Source: Leucogyrophana mollusca
Lineage: Eukaryota > Basidiomycota > Agaricomycetes > Boletales
NCBI GenBank assembly: GCA_021014945.1
Contig: MU266373.1
Location: 68,002 to 132,001, forward strand
Length of the DNA stretch: 64,000 nucleotides
Direction: 5' to 3'
In this document: positions 891-42,290 of the stretch, piece after piece
How positions within the stretch are numbered: the stretch's first letter is position 1
How the letters are laid out: each line of letters begins with the position of its first letter
Program-made: the position numbers and the translations under genes
The notes under the pieces: generated by a model
Database searches by the model: none
Told to the model about the DNA's origin: nothing
The model's input: the letters and a program-made list of their open reading frames with translations, nothing else

Positions 891-3800
891 ATGAAGGGCA
901 TCCCTCTCTGCGAATCCAGCAATCTTTTCGATTTCACAGACTCATGCATGCGGGCTTCCTGGGGAGCCATAGTCCCAACAGCGTTCGTCATCTCCCTCAT
1001 TGTCTTCCCTATCTCGATACCCGGGTTCCCTCGAGCAGTCATTACGTCTGCGCGAGCCTTGTTCACGACGTATCTAACTCTTCCGGAAGCTGAGGCTTTG
1101 ACGGCAACCGATAACGACGACGGCCTTCCCAAAGTCTCTAGTCAGGCCATCCCCCTCTGGCGCACTGTCATCTTCTCCTTCGTTGGTCTTGCTCAAGCGC
1201 TCGCCTGGCTGGCAACTGGCGCCTATGTCCTAACAACCAACGCCCTATATGCCCAGTCTGGCATCTATCACATACTCACCTCATTAACTTGGGTATACGC
1301 GGCCATCAGGCCCGTATTTTGGGCGAAAGCGACGGCTTACGCCGATCTGTTCTCGCTGTATCTTATTCACTTGACCTCGGGGATTTCACTTCTTGGAGGT
1401 GCTGTGTACGAGCACAAAGTATACGGTGGACCTTTGCCGACATTGACTTTGGTGGCACTTGTACTCAACTTGGTCGCTGTGCTCGTACTTTTAAGTACCG
1501 TGGTAACGATGCCCTGTCAGCTGCCCAGTGAGCGCGTCAAGAAAGAAGACATTGTACTCATTTCTCTCGATATCCGCGCGGATATTGGCTCATGGGAAGC
1601 ACTATAGGGTCTTTCCGTTTCGCCAGAAGATTACACTACGATATGGGGCTGGATAACTTTCTCTTGGGTATACCCCCTTATCAGACGTGTAAATGCTTCT
1701 ATCATGTCTATTTTGGCCCCGCCTGATAGGTTGCACCAGGGGACATCGATGACTATGAACGAAGAAGACGTGTGGAACCTTAGCCCGACCATGCAGTCGC
1801 GGCCAGTATTCACCAAGTTCAGCACTATCTCGTAAGTGCGTTTGGTTGATTCATGCCGGTTATTTCTAACCTTTCAATGTTACTTGCCCAAGCCGTCCAT
1901 CCCTTTTCCGGCGTCTCTTGGCTGCTAATTCGCTTGATCTTATGTGGGGGGCGTCTCTCTAGCATGCACAGTGCCATGTGCTGATGCCAAAGCAGACTGG
2001 ATATGGTTCTGGCGTTATTGAGCACCGCGTTAGACTATGCCCCTCCATTTTTTTTGAAGTGAGCCACCCTCCCCTCGTAGTAACGTTAACCACACGGCCC
2101 ACGCGTCCACAGGCGGATCATCGACGCTATTGATAACCCAGCGTCAGACAGCCGCGCCCATGCTTACATATACGCACTGCTCACGTTCGTGTGTACCATG
2201 CTGCGGGTGGGCTCTTATCTTTCATCCCCTTCCCCATTCCGACCATCTCTCTTTCAGGCTCAAGCAGAGGTTCAACACCTCTGGTTTGCCCGGCGGGCCG
2301 CAGGCCGTGTGCGTAGCGAGCTCATGGCAGCGATATACGAAAAAGCCCTCAAGCGCGCAGATTACTCTGGGGTCGTCGACAAAGACAAGCATGCAAAGAT
2401 TGCAGACACCAAAGCAACTGATGCAACTGACCCTACTACAGATGACCCGAAGGCTGGCGCGGACGTCGGGAAAATCGTGAATTTGATGGCCGTCGACGCT
2501 GATAAGGTGTGTGAAAGCCATGGCGACGAAGCATCACCAAGCCAATGATTCCATCACTGAGTAGATCGCGTTCGTAGTCTCCCTCGCCTACCTCTTCTAT
2601 GTGGGCATGTACTTCTCTTTCAAGTAATGTCTATACGCTCATAGCTCCAAATTACAGTACCATTTGGAGTTCTCATCGCTGGCGCGTTCTTGTACAAGTA
2701 TGTTGCGATCCCGATGATTCATGTTGTCAGTTTGGCTGGGCTTAAAGTGAATCCCAACACAGCCTGCTCGGCATCTCAGCGTTTGCTGGCTTCTTCGTCA
2801 TTATCGCTATTTTGCCAATCAACAAATTTGTCGTGAAACGGAATATTCGGGTCTACAAAGGCTCTTCTGTCTCGCGTGACAAGCGTATGGGTGTTCTGAA
2901 CGAACTCATCAGCGCTGTAAGCATATTTCTTTGCCAAGGTGGGACGCTAACCACGGCCTGGTGCGTAGATTAAGTTTGTCAAGTTCTTTGCATGGGAGGA
3001 CCGCTGGATCAAACGTGTCATGGATGCTCGTGCGGTCGAGATAGATTGGATGGTCAAAGGTCTGAAGTGATTGGTTACTCGGCCGCTCCGTTGCTTATTT
3101 TGTATCTTTCAGCTCGAACCAATTCTGTGATATATACGGCCTTGTGGTCATTCGCACCGATGGTGGTTTCGTTGGTGTCGTTCAGTGCCTTCGTCTACCA
3201 AGGCAAAGAGTTGACTGTCGCCATTGCGTTCACCGTAAGTGCTGCTCAACCAAAATCGGACAACACCAGCTGATAGATCCGGGTTGTCGTAGTCTATCAC
3301 TCTCTTCGCCATGATAAGGCTCGTTTCCTGTGAATGTGCTAGGTGAGGGCCTGGTTAACGTAAATGCATGCAGGTTACCTCTACACAGCTTCCCCATGTT
3401 GATCGACCAGTTTGTTCAAGTAAGCTGGGTAACTTGTATTATGGCATTATGTCTTACCTTTGCCTCTCTCCAGACCCGCATCGCTCTGAACCGCATTGCG
3501 ACATTTCTTGGCGAGGACGAAGTAACGGACCAGGTATCGTCCATCAAGCAATCTCCCAACCATCACAACGCAGAGGAGAGCGAAGGTCTCGCCATCGAAA
3601 ACGGGACATTTAGATGGAACGAGGTCCCCGAAGAGAGCAAGCCCGACAATACTAAATCGAAGCCAGCGACTCTGGGCGACGATTCCGACACGGTGATCGA
3701 TTCTGGCTCGACGACTGGTCTGTCACTGTCGGAAGATCACAAGTTCGAACTGAGAGACATATCCGTACGGTTCCCCGAAGGCGAGCTGACTGTGATCACT

Positions 3801-6800
3801 GGTCCCACCGCTAGCGGAAAATCAGCTCTGCTTGTGCGTTGGGGGTTATTGGTAACATACGATTTGTTGATTGTCTTTGGCAGGTGGCACTACTCGGAGA
3901 AATGACCATAATCAGCGGAAAGCTCGTCATGTCAAAGAACACAACGAAAGTCGGTGATCATGGCTTGACGCAGTCCATTTCATATGCCGCACAGTCTCCC
4001 TGGCTCCAGCATCAATCAATTAAGGATAATATTGTCTTTGGCCACACTTACAACGAAGAAAGGTACAATGCCGTTGTGGAGTGCTGTGCACTGCGGCCGG
4101 ACTTGCGCATGTTTGAAGATGGAGACCAGACTGAGATAGGTGCCAGGTGTGCGATCATACAACCCTTGCGAGGGAACACAACTAATTTCGATGTCGTGTC
4201 ATTCCCAGAGGAGTGAGCTTGTCCGGGGGCCAAAAAGCTCGGTAAGCTGTTTGATACCTCTGCGATACATGAAATTCATGCATCTTCCAGTGTGGCTCTC
4301 GCTCGAGCAGTCTATGCTCCTGCCAAATACGTCTTGCTGGACGATCCGCTGAGTGCAGTTGTAGGCAGCCCGCCCTCCTTGCCACTTTCTTCTCTGACAT
4401 GTGTGGTATTAATTAGGACAGTCACACTGCGCGCTTTCTGTATGAGAAACTCTTCTACGGACCCTTGTTGGCCAATCGTACTGTGGTACGTATTGAACCT
4501 TGCCATAATTTCCCATTCGTTAACCGCGTTCGTTCAGATCCTCGTCACGCACCACGTTGACCTCGTATTACCCGGAGCGTTCTACCTCATTCGCATGTTG
4601 GATGGTCGAATCGACACGCAAGGCACGATCAAGGATTTGCAAGCACAAGGTGTCCTAGATCATATAAAACAAGACTCTGCAGCGGAAATGAAACAAGAGG
4701 ACCCGGTAGCAGCAAGCGAAGCACCAGCTGAGGGTCAAACACTTGAAGACGAGGCCCAGCAACCTACCGCGCTCAACAAGAAGCCTCGGAAACTGATTGA
4801 GGAGGAGCGCAGAGAAACCGGAGCAGTCGAGTTCGCCATCTACAACACATACCTGAAAGCTTCGTCCGTCCTGCTTTACCTTGCTTATTGTCTTCATCTG
4901 ATTCTTTGCCAGTTCATACTGGACCTGGGGCATACTGGCTCTGTCGATTGTATTGTCGCAGGTGAGATACACGGGATGATTACTCATGCACGCCCGCTGA
5001 TATCTCTTGAGGGTCTGGGTGTAGTGGAAAAACTCTGGATCCGAGTGAGTTTTTATTCCCAAACCTGTTGGGGTTAGACACCTATCTTTTTAGACTTGGG
5101 GCCAAGCCTACGGCGATGACTATCGACCAGATACATACGCCTTCGTCTCCTCGGCAGCGTTAACTGAGAACGGTGCTCGAGTGAATGAGATGTTGTCGTC
5201 ACTTGTCTCTCATCAGCATCCAAGCAAACTGTATCTCGCGCAATCCCCCCAATTTCCCAATGCCTACGAGCACCCCCTCTTCTACGTTGCGGTATACGGT
5301 GCCATCGGCCTCACGACTGCTCTCGTTAGTGTGACATCGACATTCGTGCAGTATACGGGTGCTTTGCGGGCTTCGCGGTCGATGTTCAAGACGCTCTTAG
5401 AGGGTGTTGTTCGGGCCACTATGCGTTGGCATGATGTGACTCCTCAAGGTTCGTCTATGTTAATTCACCCAGGTATTTCATCTGACATCTGGTAATTAAC
5501 ATAGGCCGTATGCTCAACCGATTCGGAAAGGTTGTTACTCTTCGCCGTCTCCATGAGGGAGCACCCATTAATGCATGCGCTCCCAGGACATTGAGACTAT
5601 TGATAGGGAATTGGCTAGATCGCTTTCGGATGTCAATTATTCATTGGCTACATTCGCAGCAGCCATCCTCACTGTCACGTAAGTGAACAATATTGTGGAC
5701 ATGTGTCGATGCTGAACCTCGTTTTCAGTGTTTTCTTCCCTCTCTTCCTAATCCCGGCCGCAGTTCTTGGCTACTTTTACCACAAGCTTGCAGTTGGATA
5801 CCTCAATACTGGCAGAGATCTCCGGCGCATGGAGTCCAATTCTAGATCACCGATCTACTCCGGCTTCAGTGAACTGTTGGATGGCATCGTTACAGTGCGC
5901 GCTTTCTCCGCAGAGCGTCGCTTCATGGATGGTCTCCACGAGAAGGTCGATTTCACTACTAAGGCGCGTTGACCAGAGCATGTGTTGAGCTTCCTCACCT
6001 GGATGTGCTAACTCAGTTCTCGTGATGTTTTGAACAGATGTGGTACAACTTTTGGATGACGAATCGTTGGCTAATGCTGAATTTCGACACTTTGGGAGCC
6101 TTTGCCGTTCTCATCACCACGCTCTTTGCGCTGTCCGGCTATGTCAAAGCTGGAACAGCGGGTCTGTGTATTGTTAGCGCTATGTCGTTTACCGAGAGCG
6201 TGTATTGGGCCTGCCGCTTTTGGACTACGCTCGAACTTAACCTGAAGTATGTGGACTCATACGACCCCAACCGCTGCAGCTGTTGATCTCATCCTTCAGC
6301 TCGGTTGAGCGCGTCGTTGAGTACCTTGACCTCCCTCAAGAGCCTCCCGCAATCATACAGTCCAATCGTCCCCCCGCGTACTGGCCTTCCAGCTCGAGCG
6401 ACAATAGTCTCATCGCCGCCGAGAACCTGGTCGTTAAGTACGCTCCTGAGTTGCCGCCTGTTCTACACAACGTGTCTTTCAGATTAAATGCGAAGGAGCG
6501 TGTTGGATTGCTTGGACGCACGGGTTCGTCATCGCTTCTCTAATTTAATCCTGGTGATGGTGCTGAGTGTGGCGTGGTCAGGAAGCGGCAAGTCAACTTT
6601 GGCCATGAGTATTCTTCGCTTTGTGAGTCTCCAAAGAGTGTTGCTACGCATTTCGAATGTCACATATCCACACAGGTCGATCCTGCGAGTGGACGTATCA
6701 TGATCGACGGCGTCGATATTGCCACCATCGGAGTTCATGACCTGAGATCGCGACTAGTTAGTTTTTTCACTCTTCTTGTGGTAATAACCCATGCAAACCC

Positions 6801-7631
6801 TGCTCTCGCCTTTGCCGCAGACGTTCATTCCGCAGGTGATGCTACCTCTGTGCCGCTTGCTAAGCCAAATTCAAAACAGTCATTCACAGGATGCAACGCT
6901 TTTCTCGGGTACTCTGCGCGACAACTTGGACCCCTTCGGTTCGTATCTCGCGTTTCGACGACCAGAGGTGCGGACTGTGACGGTCGTTTCTTAGGTGAAC
7001 ACGAAGACAGCGAATGTCTTGACGTCCTGTACCGTACGCACATGATTGGCGAAAGCGCTTACCAATCACAGCTCGCCTCTCGCGCCCCATCCCCCACTCC
7101 TTCAGTTTCTCTGCCAACTTCATCCGCCGCATCCACCATAACCACTAACGTGAACTCGAAGACCGCAGTCTCACTTGATACCCAAGTCTCCGCAGGAGGA
7201 ACGAACTTCTCGCAAGGCCAGCGCCAACTCATCGCAATGGCGCGCGCTTTATTAAGACGTAGTTCTATCATTATCTTGGATGAAGCAACAAGCAGTATCG
7301 ACTTTGATACGGACGCAAAGATACAAGCCACAATTCGGGAGGAGTTCGGCGAGAGCTTGCTGTTGACTGTCGCTCATCGATTGAGGACTGTTATCGACTA
7401 TGACCGCCTTATTGTCCTCGACAAAGGAGAGGTCTGTTCCGACTGTAGCATATACTTTTCGTCCCTCGTTGCTGATGCGCCTTTTAGATTGCGGAGTTTG
7501 ACACACCACTCAACTTGATACAGAAAGAGGATGGAATCTTCCGAACAATGTGCGTCAAGAGCGGTTCGTTTTTGGAGCTGGAGGGCGCTGCGAGGGCGAA
7601 GTCAGAGCGTGATGCTGCTGCTGCTAAGTAG
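891..7631 (+). CDS. ABCC/MRP-type ABC transporter (copy 1), multi-exon
   Basis: Full-length ABC exporter of the C subfamily (multidrug-resistance-associated type), which moves organic anions, conjugates or drugs across a plasma or vacuolar membrane using ATP. The N-terminus (ATG at 891) carries about five hydrophobic segments that look like a TMD0 region, followed by TMD1, NBD1, TMD2 and NBD2. NBD1 has Walker A GPTASGKS (3801-3824), signature LSGGQ (about 4218-4235) and Walker B LLDDPLSA, the Asp-Asp form usual for the weak ABCC site. NBD2 has Walker A GRTGSGKST split by an intron near 6530-6582, signature FSQGQ (near 7207) and Walker [12 protein letters not shown] Ser/Thr/Pro-rich insert (about 7070-7180) precedes the NBD2 signature. 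The stop is at 7629-7631. It is read through many short introns; I saw no forced break, so it is probably functional. A close inverted paralogue lies at 31346-38097. The substrate cannot be told. Confidence 0.88.
5505..5530 (+). other. 26-nt microexon in ABC transporter copy 1
   Basis: The 26 bases between an AG acceptor (…taattaacatag) and a GT donor (gttgtta…) encode the core of the conserved motif RMLNRFGK, found after the TMD2 coupling region in ABCC proteins. Without this exon the flanking frames (…TPQ and DIETID) do not join. An equal exon exists in copy 2. Confidence 0.75.
6821..6835 (+). other. 15-nt microexon in ABC transporter copy 1 (TFIPQ, Q-loop of NBD2)
   Basis: Fifteen bases flanked by tttgccgcag and gtgatg encode TFIPQ, whose Gln is the Q-loop residue of NBD2. 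The preceding exon ends in …LRSRL and the next begins [12 protein letters not shown], so the microexon is needed to restore the conserved order. The same 15-nt exon is present in copy 2. Confidence 0.75.
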
Positions 7632-7636
7632 ACCAG

Positions 7637-7907
7637 TCACTGCAGGCAAAACTCGATGTTTTGTTGCAGAACATGGCAAAAACATTCAACAAATAGATAC
7701 ATTTTTTCTCAAATGTTCAGTGTCATAATATTTTAAATATTTTTGCATGGAACATTTTATTCCTTTCATTGTCATTGGTGGGCTGCAATGTTCTGGCAAA
7801 ATAAATATAAAATATTTTGTGACGGAACATCAGGAAAAACATAGTTTCTGTATTTTCCATATTTTCACCATGTTCTGAGGCAAAACTTTGATTTTTGCCT
7901 GCAGTGA
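7637..7907. mobile_element. MITE-like non-autonomous inverted-repeat element
   Basis: About 270 bp, AT-rich, with imperfect terminal inverted repeats. The outer 15 bases (tcactgcaggcaaaa, 7637-7651) match the reverse complement of 7893-7907 exactly, and similarity continues inward to a shared gttttg…agaacatgg, giving roughly 40 bp arms. The interior holds AT-rich palindromic patches and no coding frame. It sits six bases past the stop codon of the ABC transporter, so it is probably within or next to its 3' UTR. I could not define a target-site duplication. Confidence 0.6.
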
Positions 7908-8034
7908 GTGTGGAAAGCAAGACGATAAACATGACAGTGTAGCGCTATAAGGCAAGGACATATATGTACCTCAGTTTGATTTTTTACAGAGCGCTAGCAG
8001 CGTAGACCACGAAACTGTGTCGGAGATTTCTTAT

Positions 8035-8430
8035 TTCCTTTACAAGGCGTTGCAATTAGTTGAAATGCCCCAATAATAATCCAGCATTAAAATACCTTGC
8101 AATAAAGTACGAGCATTTCAATAGCAATTGCCACGCAGACGAAAAATTGCAATACCGGCTGCAATGCCGGTTGCAATGCCGGCTGCAATGCACATTGCAA
8201 TCAAGGTGATATCTTGTTACTTGTTGTAACGCTGGGGAGTTATGATAAGTGGTTGGATAAATAAAAAAGTAATTGCAGTAGGTCCTACAGTATTGCCTCC
8301 ATCGTCCTCTATTGTAATTGTACTGCAACCTTGTTTCGAACTCACGACCTCGCTCGCAATTGTATGCTTAGTAAAGCTAATAGTCTACTTACCTCTCGCA
8401 GCATAACCGTTACACTACTATACCATACAT
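8035..8430 (-). mobile_element. Candidate tRNA-derived SINE
   Basis: On the minus strand the 5' end resembles a tRNA gene. An A-box-like stretch (TAGTGTAACGG, reverse complement of 8407-8417) is followed by a B-box-like stretch (GAGTTCGAAAC, reverse complement of 8333-8343). The spacing of about 64 nt is long but possible. No tRNA cloverleaf is evident, so this looks like a tRNA-related head, not a gene. The body that follows contains a 12-nt tandem repeat (8149-8196) and frequent ttgcaa motifs. The 3' end is approximate. Confidence 0.5.
8149..8196. repeat. 12-nt tandem repeat, about four units
   Basis: Four consecutive 12-mers of the form gcaatgccggyt (8149-8160, 8161-8172, 8173-8184, 8185-8196); the first and last units are diverged. 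They lie inside the SINE candidate. Confidence 0.8.
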
Positions 8431-8508
8431 ATACTTGAAACGTCCTTAAATATATCAGGCTGCTGAGCACTTGTGATCATAAATCATAAAAGAAGACAGC
8501 ATGACAAG

Positions 8509-10140
8509 CTATTTACGAGTGGATCGATGAGTACCCTTCTTAGCACCACTGCCACTGCCACGACCACGACCACGACCACGGCTAGCAACAGGTACCTCTA
8601 TGTCCACAGTGCCACTATCTCCAAACTCGCCCTCGGTGTCTGCAGGGGGTGCGGGGTCAGGGTCTTCGGTGTTGTGGTCTGTGGTATGGCTGGTAGGTGG
8701 TGCAGGGACAGGGATTGCCAGTGCCGTGGGGGCATCTCCAGCCCTGTTCTCGGGTACATACAAATCCTCATCACTATCCATATCGAGTGCTGCCATGGCA
8801 TTATCCATAGCGGCTGACAAGTCTTCCCCGGAGGCGGTTTGCTGACGTGCCGATGCTGGCTCACCGAAAACATAATTATTGATGTTTCTGACAATCTCCT
8901 GCAAGCGCCGTGTTTCCCATTTCGTGACGAAGAGCTTTTTGTACGAACGGAACATGTCGGCATAGACCATATGAGAGTCTGGACCACAGCGATCTTTTGA
9001 GAATCCCTTATCCGGTGATAGGAGGAAGATAACCTAACAAAGAAGTGAGCAGAATGCAAAAAGGATGAAAATTTCCATCTCGCACGATAACCGCACACCA
9101 CGCAAGTAGTCCTGGTGTGCACGACGTAATATTCCAGATTTTGCCATTGGGCGGTGGTCCTCCGCCACCCTTCCCCCTCGACAGAGACTGCTTGCCGAAA
9201 AGCAATACTTTCGCAGCCTGACGGCGGGTCTGTATGAGTCACGAGAGTTATTAAAATAAATTGCAGACGCACCATGGCAAAGGGTTGCCAGTTACCGAAA
9301 ACATTCTTGAGATGTGGATCGTACTGCAGATTCGGGAACAGGATGGGAGGGAATAAGATATACTTGTGAATCTCTGGATCGACGAAGAGCCTCTTTCGGA
9401 TCTCCAGAACTGACAGCCGGTCATACCCCGGATTATCGAAGTATTCGGTCGGCAGGCCCAGGATCTTCCCAGCTACATCACGAAGCTTCCGGATCTCAGT
9501 TGAACGAGATGAGCTGACTGTCGTATCAAGCTACAACGTCGTGTCGTAAATAAATGACTTGAATAGTTGTATGACAGATTTATCTTACTAATTCTGCGAA
9601 ATGACGGCCAGATACGAGGCGATGAAGATGAGACGGCAGGTGATGGTACAGCTCCACGAGTAATGCAGCCTCTTCTGCAAGGGCTGTTGTATATCGTGCT
9701 TGAGTTGTGAAGGAGGAACCGTCCGGGGACGTAGGTGGAGGTCTCCGGAGGACATCGTGACCGGGGGGAAACATCTCTAGCATGGCACCGTACATGCGGG
9801 AAAACGTGGCGACTTCGTTATCATGCACGGCTACCTCGTCGGGCACCCCAGTTTGCCGCCGCTTTGGCATCTGCGCTTTCAAAAGATGATTCTCCTGTCG
9901 TAGTGCAGTATTTTGCTCCTTGATTTCACGCAGTTGCAACTGAGCTTGCTTGAGCGCCTACACAACAGTCAGATCATGACTCGCTACGCAGCGCATGAGT
10001 GAACAGTGATGATAATCACGTACCTGTTCGAAGTCACTCTTAGAAGCGTTCGGAGGAGGAAATGCAATGTCGATGGGATCCGAATCGCTGTCTGCCATGA
10101 AACCTGCTTCGGAGACGCTTCTGCGTGATGCTGATGACAT
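8509..10140 (-). CDS. Uncharacterised lineage-specific protein with N-terminal coiled coil and Arg-Gly tail
   Basis: I cannot assign a function. Reading from ATG at 10140, exon 1 (acidic, Ser/Asp-rich) splices near 10023 to an exon encoding a Gln/Leu/Glu-rich likely coiled coil. Two more exons follow (about 9240-9530 and 9050-9240), then a last exon starting near 9046. The middle part holds motifs such as ILFPNLQYD, LLFGKQSL and NITSCTPG, a pattern I associate with large, poorly characterised agaricomycete families often found near transposons. The C-terminus has acidic and Pro-rich stretches and ends in a GRGRGRG run and basic residues, suggesting nucleic-acid binding. It lies in the same orientation as the composite pseudogene and the Plavaka transposase upstream, so it may be a transposon-associated gene. 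Splice sites are plausible and no break was seen. Confidence 0.55.
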
Positions 10141-10498
10141 TGGTCCGTACGGAGTGACAGATGAACTGAACGTGCAAAAGAATGTGAGTGCGAAACGGCG
10201 TGGGCGTACCAGGAAATCGGGCGTACTTTATATGATAAGCTTGAGCCGAACAAGGGCGGCCTGATGGCCTGTGTGCAGCATGGGCCGCATCTACTGGTTC
10301 CGCTGAATGATGCATCCTGCTTGAATATTACATGTACAACCTCGTGCACTCCACATTTGCACTTACGTCTGTGGGGTATATTCCCGTCAGGCTGTGAGGA
10401 ATGTGCATCAAGGGTAAGGGAACGTGTATCGGGGTCGGGGGAAGCGAGGAAGGCCAAGTGAGGATGGCACTGCATCGGCATTACCACCCCCACGCCGC
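10141..10498. other. Spacer between lineage-specific gene and composite pseudogene
   Basis: No conserved coding sequence recognised. It presumably holds the promoter of the minus-strand gene that starts at 10140. A long minus-strand open frame crosses it, but its translation here has no family resemblance. Confidence 0.4.
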
Positions 10499-10692
10499 GA
10501 CACCTCCACATCTGGACACCCCGCCATCCCGCGCGCTGCGTTGCATGGGCGGTCCTCCAGCATGACGGTGTCGCTGTCCACGAGCAGGAAGACCTCCCAG
10601 CGTGGCACAAGCGCGCGTTTGCCACCCATGGCTGGTACCCGCTGCGCGTCCGAATCGCGTGTTTGCCGCCCATGGCTGGTACCCCCGCTGCG
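10499..10692 (-). pseudogene. Glycosyltransferase family 2-like fragment, second part
   Basis: After ATPase WGFT, the frame continues into RSGYQPWVANARLCHAG. With a one-base shift near 10600 it then reads EVFLLVDSDTVMLED and AARGMAGCPDVEVS. This resembles the GT2 segment PWAANGR…GE..LLVDSDTVVPEDC..DAAREMAECPDV, which normally follows the FKKASN region. The DSD would be the metal-binding motif. The first part of this segment is duplicated (44-nt spaced repeat). It ends abruptly near 10499. Confidence 0.55.
10617..10692. repeat. Direct repeat of about 30 nt, spaced 44 nt, at the ATPase/GT2 junction
   Basis: The stretch gtttgccacccatggctgg… (10617-10646) recurs as gtttgccgcccatggctgg… (10661-10692) with one substitution and a two-base insertion. 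It encodes YQPWVAN-like sequence, so a short piece of the glycosyltransferase exon is doubled precisely where ATPase sequence stops. Confidence 0.8.
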
Positions 10693-11244
10693 GTGAAGCC
10701 CCAGTTGGCGTAGGCAGCGATGATGGAAGACACAAGCTGAACAATGCAGAAGGCACCGAGCAGGGCGAAGGAGGGACGTTCCATGAAGAAGAACCCGTGC
10801 GAACGTGTAACGAAGATCAAAGCCTGCGAGACGATAGCAACTTGGAGGTAGACAATCATGTGCAATTGATGGTCGTTGGCCGAGGGGTATCCGGTGCCGG
10901 AGGTGAACTCGACGCCGAACTTGTCGTAGAAAAAGCTCGCCTTCAGGATGATGGATACAAGGGCGATACTGTAGAGGAAGATCAGATGCTGCCCTAGAAA
11001 GCAGATAATAGGAGCACTTACGTCGATGCAGTGAGGTAGATACCGTAAGCAACGGCGTACGAGAAGATCTCGGCCAAGGGCCATGCGTCGGGAGTCATTG
11101 AGGGGAGGACATGGTCGACAGACAGAGTCATGATGGCGCTGTCGTTCAGGAGGGCAATGATCAGGGCTATGAAGGGAGGGAAGTCGAAGCGGGAGGCGAA
11201 GGCGAGGATGACGAAGCAGACGACGATATGGATGGTCACAGTGA
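10693..11244 (-). pseudogene. Plasma-membrane H+-ATPase fragment, second part (M5-M10)
   Basis: The ATPase resumes exactly at M5 with VTIHIVVCFVILAF, then FDFPPFIALIIALLND, IMTLSVDHVLPSMTPDAW, LAEIFSYAVAYGIYLTAST and, after an intron (10969-11021), IALVSIILKASFFYDKFGV, LHMIVYLQVAIVSQALIF, RSHGFFFMERPSFALLGAF and IAAYANWGFT. The usual C-terminal regulatory tail is missing; glycosyltransferase-like sequence follows. Confidence 0.85.
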
Positions 11245-12090
11245 CCGCCAGCAGTGCCAGCAGCCCGACCGTGCTCGTCACGAGCGTCGGCGTGAAGTGC
11301 AGCCGGTACGGCGCCGCGGTGTTGTTGATGATGTACGACCCCAATATGCCGACCCCGAGGAGGATGTTCAGCATCGGCCCGCCGAAGCACGCGGAGAAGC
11401 CCATGATGGGCGCAAAGACCTGTGCACGCGGGGTTAGCGTGTGGGCACGGGAGGGAGGGAGGGGGGCTCACGGCGACGCTCATGTTTGCGACCAGGTCCG
11501 CGAGCGAGTTTCCGATGGCAAAGATCATCAGCCCGATGATCGCATCCGAGAGACCAAAGATGAAACCGAACATCTGCCAGCGCGTCAGCCACAAGTGCAG
11601 ACGAAGCGGCCGGATGGTGCGTACCTGGAGGACGTTCACGACCTCGTCTGCGATTGCCATGATCCACACTATGGCGACCAGGAACCCCATGGAGCACCGC
11701 GCCATGCTGTAGGATGCGCACCGCCGTCCGCGAAGATGAGTACGAGAAGCCCCGTCGCGACGCCTGCTATCCCCGTACCGAGCAGCAGCCAATCCGCGTG
11801 TGCCGTCCCGCCTGCACAACCGCACCGGCGTCAGCACGCAATAGAACTGGAACGCAAACACGCACCTAACAGGACGCCCACGCCGAACAGCGGTCCGCAT
11901 GCACACTGCGCAGCCATAAGCCACTCGTTGAACTTCATCTCATGCAGGTCCTCCTGAACCTCTTCCTCGGCAATCAGCGCCCGCTCCACACCCTCCTCCT
12001 CGAAGTCGATCAGCCGCGCCTCGCTCGCCCCGGCCTGGTGGTGGTGATGATGTAGCTTCTCCTCGCGGGAATCCTGCGACTCGTAGGGCA
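11245..12090 (-). pseudogene. Na+/Ca2+-exchanger (NCX/CaCA superfamily) fragment
   Basis: Sequence typical of fungal Ca2+/cation exchangers: [82 protein letters not shown] and the second alpha-repeat region FSACFGGPMLNILLGVGI. Three introns with GT-AG ends are kept (11812-11865, 11574-11624, 11420-11471). A one-base change in phase near 11703-11712 separates …GAHPTA from MARCSMGFLVAIVW. The first alpha repeat is absent, so this piece could not transport ions. It enters and leaves ATPase sequence in frame. Confidence 0.8.
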
Positions 12091-12674
12091 TGACGCAAGC
12101 GTAGATGGGGTAGTTGCGCATACGGTGGAAGCTGACATGGGATCCGCGAATGGCGTGGACAATGGTAGACAGACCAGACTCGGTGAGGACAATGTCGGCG
12201 GCACCACGGGCAGCATCAGTTGCACCCTCGACGGCAATACCAACGTTAGCGCAAGACGGGGTAGGAGCGTCGTTGGCACCATCACCAGTCATAGCACACA
12301 TGTGACCAAGGCCCTGGAGACGCTTGACAGTCTTGTACTTGTGCTCAGGGAAGACGCCAGCGAAACAATCGGCGTCGAGGGTCGTCTCGTCGAGCGACAA
12401 ATGCTTGCCACCGGGAGCGGAACCGTCCTTGAGAGCCTTCGCGGGGTACATGTGATCACCGAGGCCGAGACGGCGTCCCGTCTCTTTGGTAATAGCGAGC
12501 TGGTCACCGGTGATCATCTTGACCTTGACACCGAGGGCGAGGGCGTGGTCGATGATCTACTTGGTATCTTCACTAGGGGGATCGAAGATGGTGAGAAGAC
12601 CGACAAGCTCGAAGCCGTGACCCTCACTTACATGATCATTACTGTCCAACTCCTCGTATGCAACGGCAAGGGCC
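12091..12674 (-). pseudogene. Plasma-membrane H+-ATPase fragment, first part (P/N-domain end to M5)
   Basis: Clear P-type H+-ATPase sequence: [44 protein letters not shown], the hinge motif [29 protein letters not shown] and STIVHAIRG, ending in [10 protein letters not shown] at the start of M5. The phosphorylation site (DKTGT) and everything upstream are missing. The in-frame TAG at 12557-12559 stands where the family has Gln in DDTKQ. Cutting just after IYAC, the next residues belong to a different family. Confidence 0.85.
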
Positions 12675-12931
12675 GCCTCCTCCTCCCGCTCGGCGGCGAG
12701 CTGCTCGAGGATGCGCTCCGCGCGCAGGCTCAGATCCAGGGCGTACGTGTTCGACGCTTTCTTGAAGCAGCTGCACTGCTCGAAGTCCCGGGTCCCATTT
12801 TGGCCCTCACTCTTTGAGTAGAATGTATGCACAGGCCGGGCGACCCAGCCCACGTTGTGCACAGCGTAGAAGTCTATCCGCGTGGCCACAATCTCCGGTG
12901 GGAGGAGGCGTGGCCTGTCATTGTCAAATGT
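12675..12931 (-). pseudogene. Glycosyltransferase family 2-like fragment, first part
   Basis: The minus-strand translation reads …LLPPEIVATR, then DFYAVHNVGWVARP, later FKKASNTYALDLSLRAE. In fungal GT2 enzymes I recall the pattern HNVGWVARP…FKKASNMNYGL.LSL, which lies upstream of the metal-binding DSD motif. The fragment lacks an N-terminus and any membrane segments. It runs without a stop into ATPase sequence near 12660. The family assignment rests on recalled motif patterns. Confidence 0.55.
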
Positions 12932-13293
12932 TATGCTTGTTCTGCCCTGCCGGGCATGTCTGTATCGCGCGCTTGATTCTCGAGGTCGACGGGGGGCGGG
13001 TGAGGAATGTCCAACGAGAACGTCCGGCGAGTGGCCCAAGGAACACACCTGCCGAGGAAAGTTCAGTAAGGAACGTCCAGCAAGGATAAGGGAAGTGAAG
13101 GTACTTACAAGGATGAGGGGAGCAAGGGACATCTGACGAGGAAAGACGAGTGAGCAGGAGCGCGAAGGCGAAGGCGGACAAGGAAGGGGGACATCTTGTG
13201 GGTCTCAATGAAGCACACAGAAGTTGGTTGGACGTTCGTCAAGAGTGGCAGAGTCGACGGTGGTGTTAAAGGACTCGTTTGAATCCAATACCC
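12932..13293. other. Purine-rich degenerate repeats between composite pseudogene and Plavaka gene
   Basis: On the plus strand this spacer contains imperfect reiterations of aggaa(t/c)gtcca(a/g)c(a/g)ag and related purine-rich units, roughly 12990-13200. No coding sequence recognised. It may hold the 3' subterminal repeats of the neighbouring transposon; no clear terminal inverted repeat was found. Confidence 0.4.
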
Positions 13294-16200
13294 TTAGAAA
13301 CCAGCTGACCGTCGCATCTCCTTCATGCGAAGGAACGTATCGGTGTCGATAGTGTCGATGACGAAAAAGTCGCCCGGCGTGGTCTTGTCCTCTGCAACAG
13401 CGGCACCACGGATAATGGATTTCACAGAGATGAACTCTGCATCTGCGCGTCTCCGTGTGCGAATGCGCCAGAGACCCAGGTCTTTGTCCTTCCGTGGTCG
13501 TTGCCCGATGGGAGCATTGTATGCGTGAATTAGTGCCGTTGGGTAAGTTGTATTAGCAATTGAGCATTCGAAGAGGAAGATTAGGCGAGCGAATGCGAAC
13601 TGATTGTTATCGACTTGATATATGACGCAATCGTAGCGAGGAGCGTTGTAAAAGCTGGGACTGCATCGGAGGTGGTCAGTGGTGAGTCGCCAGTCCACTT
13701 TTGACTCGTAGTTGACCCGCAAATACCGAAATTCGGTCACCTTCACAGGGAAAATGGTTGACACAAACACAAGGTCATACATAGCGTGTACATACCGTAT
13801 CGGTGGGCGTAAACTTGATGCGTCGTCCGTTGGGTAGTGGGATGTTATTACGAGGCAACGCATTGTTGAGATATTCAGCGAGCTTGATTCGGAAGTCCTT
13901 GAATGCCACGTCTGACTTGTGCAAGTCCTCGACGGCCGCTAGTGACTGCGGGTCCTGTCTCGCGCCCAAGCGAATGTGTGATACTTCGTCCATATTGTCG
14001 AGCTCCTCGTCGTCGTCTTTTGATGCATTATAGTCGTCGAGGATATCAAGCTGAGCGCGAATGTACTCTGCGACGAGAGAGCAATGGTCGGCTTGAAGGA
14101 TCTGTCGCATACAATCAATCAGGCGGTACATCAATTCACGGCAAGAACAGTGTACCTGACCAGCAACATTCTTGAAGTTCGTGCGAAGTAGGTATGAGTC
14201 TTTGAGAGGACCGTGCATTTTTTCATTCATCTTTGTGGTGTAATTGCGAGTGACGCCTTTGAATATGATGTCATCAAATAGATGGGAATTCGAATGTTTC
14301 TTGATGAAGTTCCAGAGTTTTGCGCCCTCTTCAGCCCCAGCTTTCGCGATGTATTTCTGTATCAGGGTTAGGAAGCTGATGTACTGTCATGACGGAAAGC
14401 TCACCTCCATAAGCTCGGAGAAGATTTTGAGAGCTTCAAGCCCAGCTGCAATAGTCTCCTCCGTGTGGACTTCGAGTGCAGCATACATATCCACGTCAAC
14501 GAAGGCACGAATACACTGTAGGAGGATATGACCAAGATTATTCTGCGATACTGTGAATACGTCGTGAGCCGCGAACACAAGTAGCTGTCGGAGAACAGGT
14601 GAGAATACTGGTGTGACACAATAACGAAGAACACACCTTAGCGATATCTTCATTTTTTGTGCCATCCGTGAATGATATTGACATGACTTGATCGAAGTGG
14701 TTCAAGTTTCGCCACCGTGGCAAAGCTTCATAACTGAGAATCACATCAGTACATCAACCATCATGAGTCGAAGATTATACTTTGTATCAATCTTGACCAC
14801 TGCATCACGACCTTCGGCTTCAACCAGGCGCTGAAACTCGGCCCACAGGTGATCAGCAAAAAGGCCACCATGGGCATGCAATCTGTCAAAAGATGTTGCT
14901 CGATAAACATCAGTGTTCGCCACTATATCAAATGCAGACTTTATAGTAGGAATGAGTACAAAGTGTGAGCAGGCATAAACTCGGACACTTACGTCTACGT
15001 CACGGAGAGCCTGAGATTTCAGCATCGTCTCCTTGTCTTCAGCTCGTTCTTGTTCCCGCACAGATCTAATCAACGCCTGTGTGTCAGCACTCGTACGCAA
15101 CGGATATGTTCGAGTCATGCTCGATAACTCTTCACGAGGGATAAGACAGACAGGACACGGGTAGTTACTTCGTAAGCCACGAATCAAGGCCATAACACAT
15201 CTGTGTAAACGCGTCAGTCAGAGCCATATCGAGCATACAAAGGTGGTATTACTGCTCTTCGTAATCAGCTGACAAGATTAGAATCAGTGGGAAGAACAGG
15301 CGGACTATGCCGTCCAAGCATTCAAACCAAAACCCTGTTTTTGAGTGAGGTGCAATCGATTCAAGAATCTTTTTGAACGATTCGTGCCAGACAGCGTTCT
15401 TGAAGTTCACGAACGCTGTTTTGCCAGCATGGGCTTTATCTTCTTTGACCTGCATTCATCGCATCAATCTATAAATTGGTCAGCAGATGACAAAACAATA
15501 TACGCACAATGGGGAGCCAGCCCACGACACGGCCACCACCCACACCATTACCATTACGGATTTCAACAGGTAGGTTAGCACAACGAGCTACGACGGGGTA
15601 GCCCTTCTCTCTACCAAATGATGAAAGTTTAGCCTTGTCAGCATATAGAATAAATGCGAAGGGCTTGCCGCCCGATGGAAGACGTGACTGAAACAAATCA
15701 TAAGTACAACAACTTGAAACAAGTTGTGAAATGTACTTGGGCGTCCCAGAACGCATTCGCTGTCCAAGGTTCATCATAAAAACGTACGAACGAGGTACCA
15801 TTGTACTTCGAAAGACGCTGAGCATCAAATACGAAATGGGGGCCAACCTGCGGGTTACGGAGCAGGTCGCAAGCCCAATCCCATAATGGGCGGTAATGGA
15901 TATCATAGTTCATGTTTTCGCCACGGAAAGGGACAGAAACTACATCCTTCGTAAACTAATCTTTGCAAAATGATAGTTAGGTAGGTTGCAACAAAGAGAA
16001 GAGAACAAACCGGTGTTAAACTGTGAGAAGCAGCACCCCACGTCTCACGTATATCGGTGTGGTTCTTGATGGTAAATCTCTCGTCTCCACGTGCACAACG
16101 CCGCAGTATTCCTATGAGCCGGTTAGTCTGATCCTTACTCATCGCGACCTCGTGGGCAAGCTCTGCAACCTCAAAGTCAATGCGTGTACGGAAAGGCTTC

Positions 16201-16797
16201 CAAGGTTCACGATCTGGGGGCGTCGCATGCTTTTGTGCACGTTCACGACGAAAATCGACGAAATGATCTATTTTGGCCGGGATCTCAGCGTGCGGATGAA
16301 ACTCAGTTTTGATGTCGTCGACCTCCAGGCGAGATGGGTTAGTGTCATCGGGAGGAAGAGACGGCGACATGATGCGCATCTCTAGAAAGCAGTCAGCTCG
16401 AGAGAAGAACAGTGTTATCCATTAAGTGACTCACCTATGTCTGTGTGGGAAGCTATGGGGCCTGGGTCGAGTGGCCACGGATTGGACTGTCCTGGGGGAT
16501 CTAAGGGATAATGTTTTATTGTAGAGATAAATCTCATACCTTGGGACGTCGATGCTGCAGCCTGAACGCCTTGAGAACGTCAACATTAACATCATGATTA
16601 ACCAACAAATACAACAATGAAAACGGCTCACCTTGTTCTTGCTCCAGCTGCCTTCTCTCCGCTCGAATGACTCTCGACATTTCTTCATTCTCGCGCCGTG
16701 TCTGAGCCTTCGCTTCGCACGATTTACGATGGGACGAGAATCCTATAGCTTTGAATTCTTGCTGACATATATCACAGTATTTCAACCGGGGGGCCAT
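13294..16797 (-). CDS. Plavaka-type (CACTA-like) transposase, multi-exon
   Basis: Transposase of the fungal Plavaka family, a cut-and-paste DNA transposon of the CACTA-like group. ATG at 16797 begins a C2H2-like zinc finger (YCDICQQEF…SSHRKSC, residues about 7-28) followed by a basic/Glu-rich helix. The conserved core includes PFRGENMNYDIHYRPLWDW, SGGKPFAFILYADKAKLSS, GYPVVARCANLPVEIRNG, GGGRVVGWLP, FWFECLDGIVRLFFPLI, LIRGLRSNYPCPVCLIP, and a C-terminal half rich in NEKMHGPLKDSYLLRTNFKN-like sequence. The YAD aspartate is a likely catalytic residue of the RNase H-like fold. Roughly ten introns of 45-80 nt interrupt it; when removed, the frames connect to the TAA at 13294-13296 and I found no forced stop. 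The element may therefore still be active, or only recently silent. Terminal inverted repeats were not located. Confidence 0.8.
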
Positions 16798-17430
16798 CGT
16801 GGGGTGGTCGGGGGGTTATATACAAGATGGCGGGTGTATATGACAATATACGGGGGCGGGATATGGACAGATGATGCGAGGTGGACACAGCGAGCGGCGA
16901 GTGGGGATTACAATCGATTGTGATCAACAAACAACGACATTGCATCCGAGAATCCACGTGACGACGCAATCTCAATAAACGTTACAAGTACGTTTCAACG
17001 GCCGACCATTGCGATCACTTTCCGAAATCTCCGACATGTCACGGCATATCAGGATACTCGCTTTACAGTAAGCACCCCTCTGAGCTGCTTTTGGCGACGA
17101 GTAACATTGCTTCTTTGCTCTGCCACCATCATGATCATGCGTGACGCATCTCACAATCTCGGGGCGCTCGCGGATCGAGTCTACACAAGTTATGCATATG
17201 TGTGACGGAGTTGGGTGATTCTTTGCCAGTGCTAATCATCAGCTGGTACAAGGTCGAATGCAGCAGTTGTTCCCCAAGTTGTCGCGTGTTGCGCCCGACC
17301 ATCAGGCTACACCTACATGATGCGCTTGTTCGTCAATACGGCGTCGTCTGGGGTGACAACAGTCTTATTACCCTGCTGCATTCAGTTGTCCTCGCTGGTG
17401 TGGTGCGAACCGCCCCATACATCTGACGAA
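16798..17430. other. Spacer upstream of Plavaka gene; no gene seen
   Basis: Contains a G-rich plus-strand stretch (16790-16870) next to the transposase start and otherwise unremarkable sequence. It should contain the transposase promoter and the right transposon end. No tRNA, ORF with family likeness or clear repeat was recognised. Confidence 0.4.
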
Positions 17431-17760
17431 TCCACGGTTTACGAAAACGACGTGGATGGTATAGACACGTCGACTGATGGGCCTGCCGTCACAGTATATA
17501 TGCGACGATCGACCTTCCAAGGATGAGGTTGCATCCACGAGGCAAAAATTGCCTGCAAAACAGCTTGAATCCAAACCGTGTCCAAGATGTCGGATATTGA
17601 GGAGACAGGTCTTCCTGACCTCGGACCCCGTGATGACGACGTAACACGCAAATGCAATGGAAGTCGTGGCGGAGATCTTATAACAGTCATCTATGATAGG
17701 TAAAGGAGGCTTGCTGACTGTGGACAGTTTAATGCACAGCACACAAAGACGCCATGCATC
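17430..17760 (-). pseudogene. Decayed fragment of a 7TM-like (DUF6533-type) protein gene
   Basis: The minus-strand translation gives KPPLPIIDDCYK, then TTSIAFACYVVI, then AVLQAIFASWMQPHPWKVDRR. All align with the gene at 41148-42290 (EPPLPIIHGCYK, STLFVCFVVIM, AVMHTILASRMQLHLRKVDRH). The middle exons present in that gene are missing here and the order is compressed, so this is an internally deleted relic. Confidence 0.6.
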
Positions 17761-23504: not shown

Positions 23505-23782
23505 CATCCATGTTTGTACTAGCACACTCGTTGGCTTGTCATGACGCAAGAAGCGAGATGCCTTGAAGTTGCATGATTGTCTTTATGCTTTCGGTAGATG
23601 CAGTCACCTTGGGAACCTCCCGAATCCCTAAGATTTAGCCAGTAGAGTTCATCAGGACTGCGCAGCTGATTCGTATCCGAGAATGGGCTTGAGATGAAAC
23701 TGACAGCAAAAAGATCACGCGCTCTGTGAACCGCCCGCTGCTCTGGGTCTTCGTCACCGTGTCCCTTGCAGCTGCCCACGAC

Positions 23783-25118
23783 ATGATTGCCCTCTGGCTT
23801 CCACCAATCCTCAAGACATTTCTCTTCCTTGTCGTCTTATACACTGCAACGTTGTCGAGTAAGCTCTTTAGGAAGAAATGGAACCCTCGAGGCTTGGTGA
23901 GGATGGCCTTCTGAGCTATTTGTGTTCGGACACTCACATCGACAGTAGCACGTCTACATTACTGGGGGAAGTCAAGGCCTCGGCCTAGCTTTGGCCATCC
24001 TAGTAGCGAAGAAGGGAGCTCATGTCTCCATCGTGGCGCGTACGCAAAGCAAGCTCGAGAAGGCATTAATAGAGTTGGAGGTAAGCGTTTAGGCTCAACC
24101 GAAGTTCCCTTGCTTATCTCGCACTCTCAGGCGGCTCGTCAAACTCCCGGTCAGATTTTTAGGGCGTATCCTTTTGCTTTGGACAACGCCGAGTCGTCTG
24201 CTGCAGCGTTAAAAGCTGCCAGCGAAGGCCATGGAGGACAGGTCCCCGACGCTGTGTTTGCCTGTGCAGGTGGCTCAAAACCGATGTTTTTCCTTGACAT
24301 GGAGGAACGGGACTTGACGCAGGGTATGGATAACGGCTACTGGGTGCAGGCCTGGACCGCATTCGTGAGAGGGGTTGCGTCATCTCTCATCCGAAGCACC
24401 TGCTAAGTGTTCTCCAGGCTGCTGCGAAGCAAATGGTCCGGCAGGGCAAGAAAGGCAAGATCGTCCTAGTTTCCTCAACCCTCGGGTTAATGTCCTTTGT
24501 TGGATATTCCTCGTATTCGCCGGCTAAACATGCACTCCGTGGTACGTGAAGACCTATCATCCCCCTTCTCGCTCACTTTGCTCATCGCAGTATTGTAGGT
24601 CTCGCTGAGGCGCTGCATTCGGAGTTGATGCTCTATGGCATCGACACGCACATTTTCTTCCCTCCGACCATGTACACACCTGGCTTTAATGAGGAGAACA
24701 GGACGAAGCCTGCTGTCACGCGGATGATTGAGTCCACCGACAAAGGATTGACGCCTGAGCAAGCAGCGTCGGCGCTGTTAACAGGTATGCTTAACGGGCT
24801 CTCCGTAACGATCCGGGTGTGACACATAATGCTTATCCTAGGAGTTGAAAACGGTGAGACCCAAATCGTTGGAGATCTGATCACGAATTTGTTCCGCGCT
24901 TCCACGCGCGGCGCCGCACCGCGCAACAACGTCGTTGTGGACATTATATACGACGCTATTGCTCTCGTGAGTCCCGTCTACCTACTTTCAGTGTCAGCGA
25001 TGTTACAACTATTGTTCTGTAGATTGGCGTTCCTATATGGCGCAGCTCTGTCGACAAGCATGTACTTGCTCATCGCCAGGAGCACCAAGAATACCTCCAA
25101 AAGAGGAGCTTCTTTTGA
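23783..25118 (+). CDS. TSC10: 3-ketodihydrosphingosine reductase
   Basis: NADPH-dependent ER enzyme that reduces 3-ketodihydrosphingosine to dihydrosphingosine, the second step of sphingolipid synthesis. ATG at 23783 starts an N-terminal membrane anchor (ILKTFLFLVVLYTATLSS). An SDR Rossmann fold follows with the cofactor motif TGGSQGLGLA, VARTQSKLEKA, FACAGGSKP, the strand KIVLVSSTLG and the catalytic YSPAKHALRG (Tyr and Lys of YxxxK). The C-terminus has a second hydrophobic stretch and ends QKRSFF with TGA at 25116-25118. Introns of about 45-65 nt lie near 23898, 24080, 24370, 24541, 24785 and 24968. The order of motifs fits fungal Tsc10/mammalian KDSR. It follows PPG1 in tandem with 280 bp between. 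Confidence 0.87.
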
Positions 25119-25692
25119 TCTTGGCTGTCGATTTACACTTCTTCTATCAGTAATGTACCTTACCTTGCTTCACACTATTGTGCTATGTGATGGGACACTT
25201 GATTCGGATTCCTCTAATAGATGCCCCACATAGATTTATTTGGCCTTACACATGTGCACCGAGAGCCCACACATTGGAAAGTGCCTCTCAAGCTGTCTTA
25301 AGAAGTTCAGAGCGGGAACTCCCCAACGCGCAATATTTAGAAGCCACCTAGGACTCGCTCCTGATATCCTGATTCCGATGAACGAGAGTTAGGACGTCCG
25401 ACCGAAGACAACGTGATTTCTAGGCAAGAACCACCACGTCGGAAGCTGTCCGAACAATGATTCAGGTTAAACGGGAAGAGTTTTGTTGGGTTTTGAAAAC
25501 GTGAGCCCGAAATCAACAAATCCGGCTTTAACCTTCGAGACCACAGACATGGAGCAACCATGGCACAGTCAATGTACAGCAACTATTCCAACGGCCCCCG
25601 TAGTACATACGATGAACCATGGTTTTGTTCAGAGGATGGAGTACGCGCAGGATCCCAGACCTTGGTAAAATCGATCGAAGCAAACACTTCTA
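25119..25692. other. Convergent intergenic spacer
   Basis: Lies between the 3' ends of TSC10 (+) and the HET gene (-). No gene recognised; it should contain both terminators. Confidence 0.45.
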
Positions 25693-40711: not shown

Positions 40712-41147
40712 GGCTCAGACATGGGGATGAAGCCGTTTTGTCGTACCACCAGCCAATGTTTAAGTCATTGTCTGACATCGGCTGTGCAGCGCTTGTTGCT
40801 CCCCTGAGGCTACCCAACTCGTGTAAGGAACCTCAGCGTATTAGGGCAAATGTCATACACAATATGCCACAGAACCTCGCAGAAAGGGGGTACAGTTACC
40901 CAGCTAGCACTGAAGGCTGTGGTGATTGATTAAGGCGTTGATCGACATGGGTACGCGGTACACAGCTTGTAGGTTTCTGATAGGCAACTGTTCACCAAGT
41001 TGTCGCGCATTGTGACCAACCAGGTTAGAATTAGTCCTAGGACGCCGCAACCCGCCGCGTCCGTCATTAAAGCATCCTCTGGGGTGACGAAGGCTCTCCC
41101 TTGCTGCGCTCGGGTGCCCTCGCCGGTACGCAAGGAGCGACCCGCCC

Positions 41148-42290
41148 TCATACGTCTGGCAAACCCACACTTCTCGAAAACGACATGGGCGATAGACACA
41201 CGTCGATCGGTGGGCCTGCCAAATGTATGTGACGATCGACCTTCCGCAGATGCAGCTGCATTCGCGAGGCCAAGATAGTATGCATGACAGCTTGATATCT
41301 GCTCCGCGAGACTGTCAATGAGTGTTTCGGTCGACAGCAAAAAGGATTGCTCACGTGTTAAGCAACTCGGAGTATTGGATCTGGTGGGTTACGGTCGGGT
41401 AAATTGCTGCTGATTGAGGAAAAATTATGCAGACACACCGGAAGAAGGAATATGACGAGGACGTTCGTCACGGACATAGCTTAGAAAGGAAAAACAGCTC
41501 AGCTAGGGAGGGCATGAACCACGTGAACACAACTCACCGAACACGCTAAGGCAGTAGAAAACACCGTCACGGGTTAGCCTTTGGATGAGCGCATTGGGAG
41601 CGTAGTGGAAATGTTTATGGGCACGATACAGCGTGAGGGAAATTATGACTGCATAAACGAATTCATTGTTGTTCAAGGCGTTCGGGAATGAGGAGGCAGC
41701 TCTTACTAGCTTCCGAAATCATGATGACAACGAAACACACAAATAATGTGGAATTTGCGCCAGTTTTATAACACCCGTGTATGATAGGCAAAGGGGGTTC
41801 GCCGACTGACGATACTTGAGTCAGTCAGGAACATTGAATGACGGTAGCAGAACATACACGTTACTGAGGGTAAAAAGGGGCCCAGGATAACAACCAGGGA
41901 TGTGATACTGGCCTGTAAGATCCCAAGAAGAGTCGATGTGATTCAATCACGGTGCATTTAGAACGGGCTTACCGTCAGTGTAAAACATGATATGGCGAAA
42001 ATAACTCTACTGCCGTTCCACATCGCATAACAGCGCAACGCGAAGATGCCTGCAAACAAATCAGCATCCGCAGTGTGTACCAGAAGACGTTGAGCATACA
42101 TTCCGAGATGGTGATCGCAATGGCATGCAGGACTGGAGGTGTGATTCAGTCAAGGTCAAGAAGCGGCCGGTGGATATAACTCACTCGTCTTTGAGGTTCG
42201 CTCGGACGCTTGAATGCAATGGATTGGAAAGAATGAATCAATGATGCAATTATTAAGATAAGACAGCGTATGGTATCGACGTAGCCAAGG
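41148..42290 (-). CDS. 7TM-like (DUF6533-type) membrane protein, probably 5'-truncated
   Basis: Spliced minus-strand pieces give the middle and end of a fungal seven-span protein of the DUF6533 kind: LHAIAITISE joined to IFALRCYAMWNGSRVIFAI (the LRxYAxW signature), SITSLVVILGPFYPQ, EPPLPIIHGCYKTGANSTLF, ALIQRLTRDGVFYCLSVF joined to MSVTNVLVIFLLP, then YPTVTHQIQYSELLNT and AVMHTILASRMQLHLRKV before the stop at 41148. The usual first part, which holds the DYxLTxxxEVxxIW-like stretch, was not found upstream, so the gene may be truncated or a pseudogene. Function in the family is unknown; a receptor-like role is often assumed. A smaller decayed copy is at 17430-17760. Confidence 0.55.

Follow-up and report, generated by a model that had tools for sequence, protein, structure and literature searches.

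How does a glycosyltransferase (GT) come to be split by a proton ATPase that is itself split by a cation exchanger, all on one strand and over less than three kilobases? This question is raised by positions 10499-12931 (minus strand) of a 64,000-nucleotide stretch of the genome of the wood-rot fungus Leucogyrophana mollusca (Boletales; C47:68002-132001 of G000), hereafter the window. The initial annotation, made from the letters of the window, had proposed such a nested three-gene chimera. With a comparison of the minus strand of this region against the whole genome (32.3 Mb, 545 contigs), we located the donors and, beyond the initial annotation, a container: the chimera sits within an old PlavakaA-type DNA transposon of 9,019 bp, bounded by TIRs, between the transposase region and a second ORF. 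We consider it probable that this element was filled by repeated repair of internal breaks with ectopic filler, resulting in a nested capture from several donors.

Five segments from three donor genes

BLAST against the same genome resolved the chimera into five collinear minus-strand segments in the order GT-ATPase-exchanger-ATPase-GT (Table 1). The proposal of three separate and mutually nested genes is supported: the segments map to three loci, C299 (GT2), C10 (H+-ATPase) and C8 (exchanger), all on contigs other than that of the element. In the genome-wide comparison the chimera itself is present once. In Pfam searches, the GT parent carries Glyco_trans_2_3, the exchanger parent carries Na_Ca_ex (PF01699) and the ATPase parental exon is a P-type ATPase, with plasma-membrane ATPases (5ksd, 7vh5, 1mhs) as its top PDB relatives. 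The alignments extend over 12977-12821 (77.2%), 12796-12672 (81.3%) and 10653-10483 (78.2%) for C299, over 12673-12094 (92.4%) and 11241-10692 (94.4%) for C10 and over 12095-11241 (93.5%) for C8. An additional GT match upstream of 12977 (L014rc 1742-1768) was dropped, the neighbouring sequence aligning as the start of the same exon.

Table 1. Features of the transposon and of the chimera that it carries, in window coordinates
Feature	Position	Strand	Evidence and remarks
PlavakaA-type DNA transposon, 9,019 bp	8018..17036		Perfect 13-bp TIRs, TG/TG flanks; ends coincide with homology ends at C225 (8018) and C330 (17036/17037)
Left TIR TGTCGGAGATTTC, preceded by TG (8016-8017)	8018..8030	+	Terminus shared with C225:45091, subterminal sequence similar
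Second ORF region of the element	8511..10052	-	64-67% DNA identity with C225 from TIR to 10052
Downstream copy of the imperfect direct repeat on either side of the GT block	10394..10462	-	
3' block of the GT2 fragment, its first part present twice at a spacing of 44 bp	10483..10691	-	L014 (C299), 78% over 10653-10483
Repeat D2 in the 3' GT block	10600-10640 / 10644-10684		
H+-ATPase fragment, 3' part, one inferred parental intron	10692..11241	-	L012 (C10), 94.4%; resumption at 5094/5093
Cation/Ca2+ exchanger fragment, 852 bp, three inferred parental introns	11242..12093	-	L013 (C8), 93.5%
H+-ATPase fragment, 5' part	12095..12671	-	L012 (C10), 92.4%; exchanger boundary ambiguous by 2 bp
GT2 glycosyltransferase fragment, 5' block	12672..12997	-	L014 (C299), 77-81% DNA identity; parent protein P0236
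Upstream copy of the imperfect direct repeat on either side of the GT block	13066..13154	-	
Plavaka transposase region, split by introns and/or decay over several ORFs	14004..16797	-	PF18759; C330 69-73% over 14004-17037
Right TIR TGTCGGAGATTTC, followed by TG (17037-17038)	17024..17036	-	Terminus shared with C330:22537, subterminal sequence similar

The three donors are not equally close. Differences amount to 79/433 (18%) for the GT piece, 75/1118 (6.7%) for the ATPase and 48/853 (5.6%), plus seven gap columns, for the exchanger. The outer GT piece appears to be the oldest, being the most diverged from its donor, while the ATPase and exchanger divergences do not separate and give no order between these two. 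Since 38 of the 79 GT differences fall at third codon positions, part of this divergence probably dates from a time when the GT source still functioned as a gene. Among the 120 relatives compared for the 5' GT block, C299 ranks first with 104 bits and 61% identity, although its lead is modest: the others reach no more than 94.7 bits and 59% identity among the 12 listed. Given this margin and an identity of only 77-81%, it is possible that a lost GT paralogue closer than C299 was the true donor.

These divergences also bear on the reality of the structure. The draft state of the assembly, in 545 contigs, and the repeats in which the contigs of the element's two nearest relatives end could suggest an assembly chimera or collapsed repeats. 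However, the segments are some 6-20% diverged from the only other genomic copies found, and reads from the parental genes cannot yield them; because the pieces diverge in this way from their donors, an assembly join is extremely improbable. The GenBank contig bearing the protein P0001, discussed below, is probably the same assembly and lends no independent support to the structure.

A PlavakaA-type transposon as container

The scan for TIRs was guided by the published Plavaka termini, those of PlavakaA being TGT..ACA with a 2-bp TSD (PMC12730594). The window element has these ends and is flanked by TG on both sides, a 2-bp match expected by chance once in 16. The scan passed 32 TGT, 1 CATCA, 32 CAC and 6 CA pairs; the pair 8018/17036, one of the 32 TGT pairs, does not rank first in the number of matches over 20 bases, and a matching 2-bp flank occurs in two of the 12 pairs listed. 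What distinguishes it is its perfect 13-bp run and the fact that, among the pairs listed, it alone meets the ends of homology with related sequences. An inverted-repeat pair at 9568/18714 was rejected as the element boundary, the C225 homology passing 9568 unbroken. C225 has the left end only and C330 the right end only, with 2-bp flanks that differ from each other; that both ends in the window belong to one element we infer from the pairing of the TIRs, from the TSD and from the overall layout.

Genome-wide, the terminal 13-mer gave 45 matches with at most one mismatch, versus 29 for a reversed control. Two of the six exact matches (C73, C85) show no further resemblance to the element, and among 30 loci extracted five resemble it, two of these being the element itself; C59 is a more distant relative. 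No complete second copy of the element was found in the genome, C225 and C330 running into high-copy repeats: past the homology, their contig ends have 40 and 12 matches, themselves included. In a comparison of its two flanks with C270, a match was obtained on the right side alone, so that no empty site was seen.

The assignment to Plavaka also rests on the transposase region, where PF18759 matches C47:83232-83438 (window 15231-15437) with 38.8 bits for a cut-off of 26.3. ORF 14741-15193 alone scores 24 bits, under the cut-off, and ORFs 13294-13863 and 15903-16379 have no Pfam match. The former of these two presumably resembles the C-terminal part of a Plavaka transposase. The four ORFs tested in the second ORF region have no Pfam match either, and the name DUF6698, considered for this ORF, was therefore set aside. 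By homology, the transposase region extends down to 14.0 kb and the second ORF up to 10.05 kb, which delimits the spacer occupied by the chimera. The GT block is flanked by imperfect direct repeats of about 70-90 bp, both pyrimidine-rich, with a local score of 42 versus a maximum of 35 in 300 block shuffles; they may mark the entry of the first piece. In the genome as a whole, Plavaka domains have at least 96 matches, distributed over 50 contigs.

The surroundings of the transposon hold other repeated sequences. About 110 bp left of its TIR lies a palindromic MITE-like element (7634-7910) whose inverted arms of 77 nt are 74% complementary; C92, C48 and C91 hold three further copies that are 96-97% identical to it. 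It follows an ABC-transporter-like gene region on the plus strand (about 1310-7631; ABC_tran in ORF 6574-7518), with relatives giving long matches of 64-68% on C165, C231 and C47:99438-105676. To the right, 17263-17729 and 40984-41817 form a diverged direct repeat, and a related C270 sequence starts near the right end of the transposon. A further segment, 23770-25123, is repeated at C47:59253-60625 (78%) and C17:151142-152183 (73%).

Junctions and resumption of the interrupted genes

The initial annotation held that each gene continues after its interruption roughly where it left off. For the ATPase, the return is exact: 12673-12094 corresponds to L012 5673-5094 and 11241-10692 to L012 5093-4544, so that the gene stops at parental base 5094 before the 852-bp exchanger insert and restarts at 5093 without duplication. 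A base-by-base alignment of the junctions found no target duplication at this insert, and the ATPase bases lost at J1/J2 number 0-3, a range set by alignment ambiguity. The GT does not return in this way, as 125 parental residues are skipped between its 5' and 3' blocks; in the 101 of the 120 relatives listed, parent included, where both blocks align, the median is 106 (range 22-172). Adjoining pieces overlap by 2 bp at J0 (GT to ATPase), 2 bp at J1 (ATPase to exchanger) and 1 bp at J2 (exchanger to ATPase), overlaps that may be due to chance, and J3 is blurred by a local duplication of GT sequence with a spacing of 44 bp.

Short junction overlaps, together with the similar divergences of the ATPase and exchanger, could also speak for a single replication-based event, in which all five segments from GT to GT were copied in succession by template switching (MMBIR/FoSTeS). 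We regard this as unlikely, since the ATPase and exchanger pieces have remained much closer to their parents than the GT piece to its own and a return to the very next ATPase base would be unexpected of free switching. The base-exact return would better fit an insertion at a simple break.

A copy of genomic DNA in decay

The pieces keep parental introns, three in the exchanger part and one in the ATPase part, recognised by their GT-AG ends and by frame changes. Because these inferred introns are kept, we take the pieces to be DNA copies, which speaks against processed cDNA. Processed retrocopies and class 1 TSIs are intronless and accompanied by a TSD and poly(A), whereas here introns are kept and the exchanger insert has no TSD. 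Capture by a Helitron or a retrotransposon would recall the stepwise gathering of fragments reported for maize Helitrons (PMC3288121). Helitrons have no TIRs and are recognised by a 5'TC end and a 3' hairpin-CTRR end. Such a capture is nevertheless very unlikely for a block which sits between the TIRs of a DNA transposon and, as regards retrotransposons, has kept its introns.

The presence of introns changes the account of the frame. The initial annotation had counted one nonsense codon and two frameshifts as signs of a dead gene; some of the apparent frameshifts are in fact kept introns, while the nonsense codon (one was counted in the ATPase exons compared) and true exonic indels, in the exchanger part included, remain. 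The ATPase exons show 68 differences from the parent, of which 25 are synonymous (37%; 17/44, 1/11 and 7/13 by part), 42 nonsynonymous and one a stop. A synonymous share of 26-27% would be expected without selection, and the small excess may stem from the parental branch alone. Coding constraint on the chimera thus looks weak or absent, and this, with the true indels and the nonsense codon, supports its reading as a pseudogene on the grounds of sequence comparison.

The opposite reading would be that of a functional or recently functional fusion gene with its frame kept by selection. Four in-frame junctions had been announced; J0, J1 and J2 are in phase, while at J3 only the second of the 44-bp-spaced GT copies is in phase and the first is not. 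That three of the four junctions are in phase, that both inserts (852 and 1,980 bp) are multiples of three, that synonymous changes slightly exceed expectation and that GenBank predicts a partial protein from the chimera could all be taken in favour of such a gene. However, the odds of the in-phase junctions lie between 1/27 and 1/81 and were judged after the fact; the phases are best read as chance, and with coding constraint apparently weak or absent the argument from frame carries little weight. A nonsense codon, exonic indels and 42 nonsynonymous changes among 68 in a highly conserved protein family, as well as a predicted protein which leaves out most of the exchanger insert, make a functional fusion highly improbable.

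The predicted protein in question, P0001 ('putative plasmamembrane-ATPase, partial', window 10692-12517), derives from the pseudogene. In its model, the exchanger insert is for the most part taken for an intron, with few exchanger residues kept at the joins; this intron is a prediction and no evidence of splicing. A search for this chimera in other proteins used the J1 and J2 ORFs as queries against 5.8 billion sequences, within the length limits of the search, and gave 2,416 and 252 matches, the best 120 of each being listed. The listed matches comprise 235 distinct proteins, of which 147 resemble the ATPase piece and 88 the exchanger piece, and none matches both at an E-value of 0.01. P0005 and P0037, with 99% and 90% coverage of the J1 query, are both ordinary ATPases.

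A probable stepwise filling of the spacer

The mechanism that we favour, repeated break repair inside the element, would have begun when the spacer between the Plavaka transposase and the second ORF took up host DNA, a GT2 exon fragment being the first to arrive. A later break in this fragment, accompanied by the loss of GT sequence, would have been filled with about 1.1 kb copied from a plasma-membrane ATPase gene, and a further break in the ATPase filler, at the cost of 0-3 bp, with 852 bp from a cation/Ca2+ exchanger gene. Alternatively, ATPase and exchanger could already have been joined on arrival. The fillers would have been copied from genomic DNA and end-joined with overlaps of 1-2 bp, after which the block would have decayed under little or no coding constraint. 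We infer the order of the events, the repair pathway and the location of the breaks within the element rather than during transposition. By analogy with known systems, kept introns, the absence of a TSD, the 1-2 bp overlaps and the position in the interior of a TIR element match the filling of a gap at an internal break, a fit and not a proof.

Going further, one could imagine that Plavaka elements of mushroom-forming fungi carry a break-prone spacer that traps host-gene fragments, the youngest filler being hit repeatedly, and that they give rise to nested chimeras of which some are transcribed and spliced. Such a generalisation is speculative and at present rather unlikely. The locus nevertheless tells what to look for on the 50 contigs with Plavaka domain matches, namely fragments of host genes enclosed by Plavaka TIRs. 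It also calls for caution with the L. mollusca GenBank entry 'plasmamembrane-ATPase, partial', a model drawn from a pseudogene inside a transposon.

Comparison with known systems

The view that no described element has this layout holds only in part, since the container belongs to the Plavaka-type DNA transposons and TIR elements with gene fragments have been described. Nested capture of host genes by Plavaka was not reported among the best-ranked matches in the open-access literature searched, and captured host-gene fragments in Plavaka were absent from the titles and abstract openings of the best-ranked open-access matches. Plavaka families with TET/JBP genes share the TGT..ACA termini and 2-bp TSD of PlavakaA and the presence of an extra gene; as presented in PMC12730594, the dioxygenase gene is carried by PlavakaB families, whereas here fragments of three other genes lie in a PlavakaA-type element. 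In Pyrenophora tritici-repentis, transduplication likewise placed additional host-like genes between the TIRs of fungal DNA transposons, there as whole ORFs amplified in many copies (PMC3538342), here as a single set of decayed fragments.

Class 2 templated sequence insertions also bring distant genomic sequence to a break, without TSDs and with NHEJ features (PMC5110952). They were found in human, measure 73-414 bp in the assay and, in the passages of that source used here, come with no description of nesting; an RNA template is favoured for them, in contrast with the introns kept here.

Plant Pack-CACTA and Tgm-Express are CACTA-related DNA transposons that similarly hold fragments of several host genes (PMC8903248, PMC1947982). 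Pack-TYPE elements are non-autonomous (PMC8903248) and mobilised in copies, while the chimera is single and sits beside a transposase region, and Plavaka is a distinct lineage. Nesting with a base-exact resumption is not described in the PMC8903248 passages on Pack-CACTA, and the word 'nested' occurs nowhere in that paper.

Close parallels also come from the Pack-TIRs of animals, where single-copy TIR transposons with host-gene fragments and short microhomologies have already been described (PMC8277862). According to this source, microhomology (median 2 bp) is found at one breakpoint or more in 67.6% of cases, single-copy elements are explained by gap filling and 59.8% of the Pack-TIRs are intrachromosomal. 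The window element likewise has host-gene fragments between TIRs, parents elsewhere in the genome and a DNA-level copy with inferred introns; its overlaps of 2, 2 and 1 bp at J0, J1 and J2 could be microhomologies of this kind or chance, and J3 is blurred. It differs from the animal cases of PMC8277862 in its fungal host, its three mutually nested donors, their location on other contigs, which is a point against the favoured mechanism, and the transposase region that it has kept. By this analogy, the container may be regarded as a fungal counterpart of the Pack-TIR and Pack-CACTA elements: a base-resolved case of apparently stepwise, nested capture, which shows how a fungal DNA transposon can collect and scramble the genes of its host.
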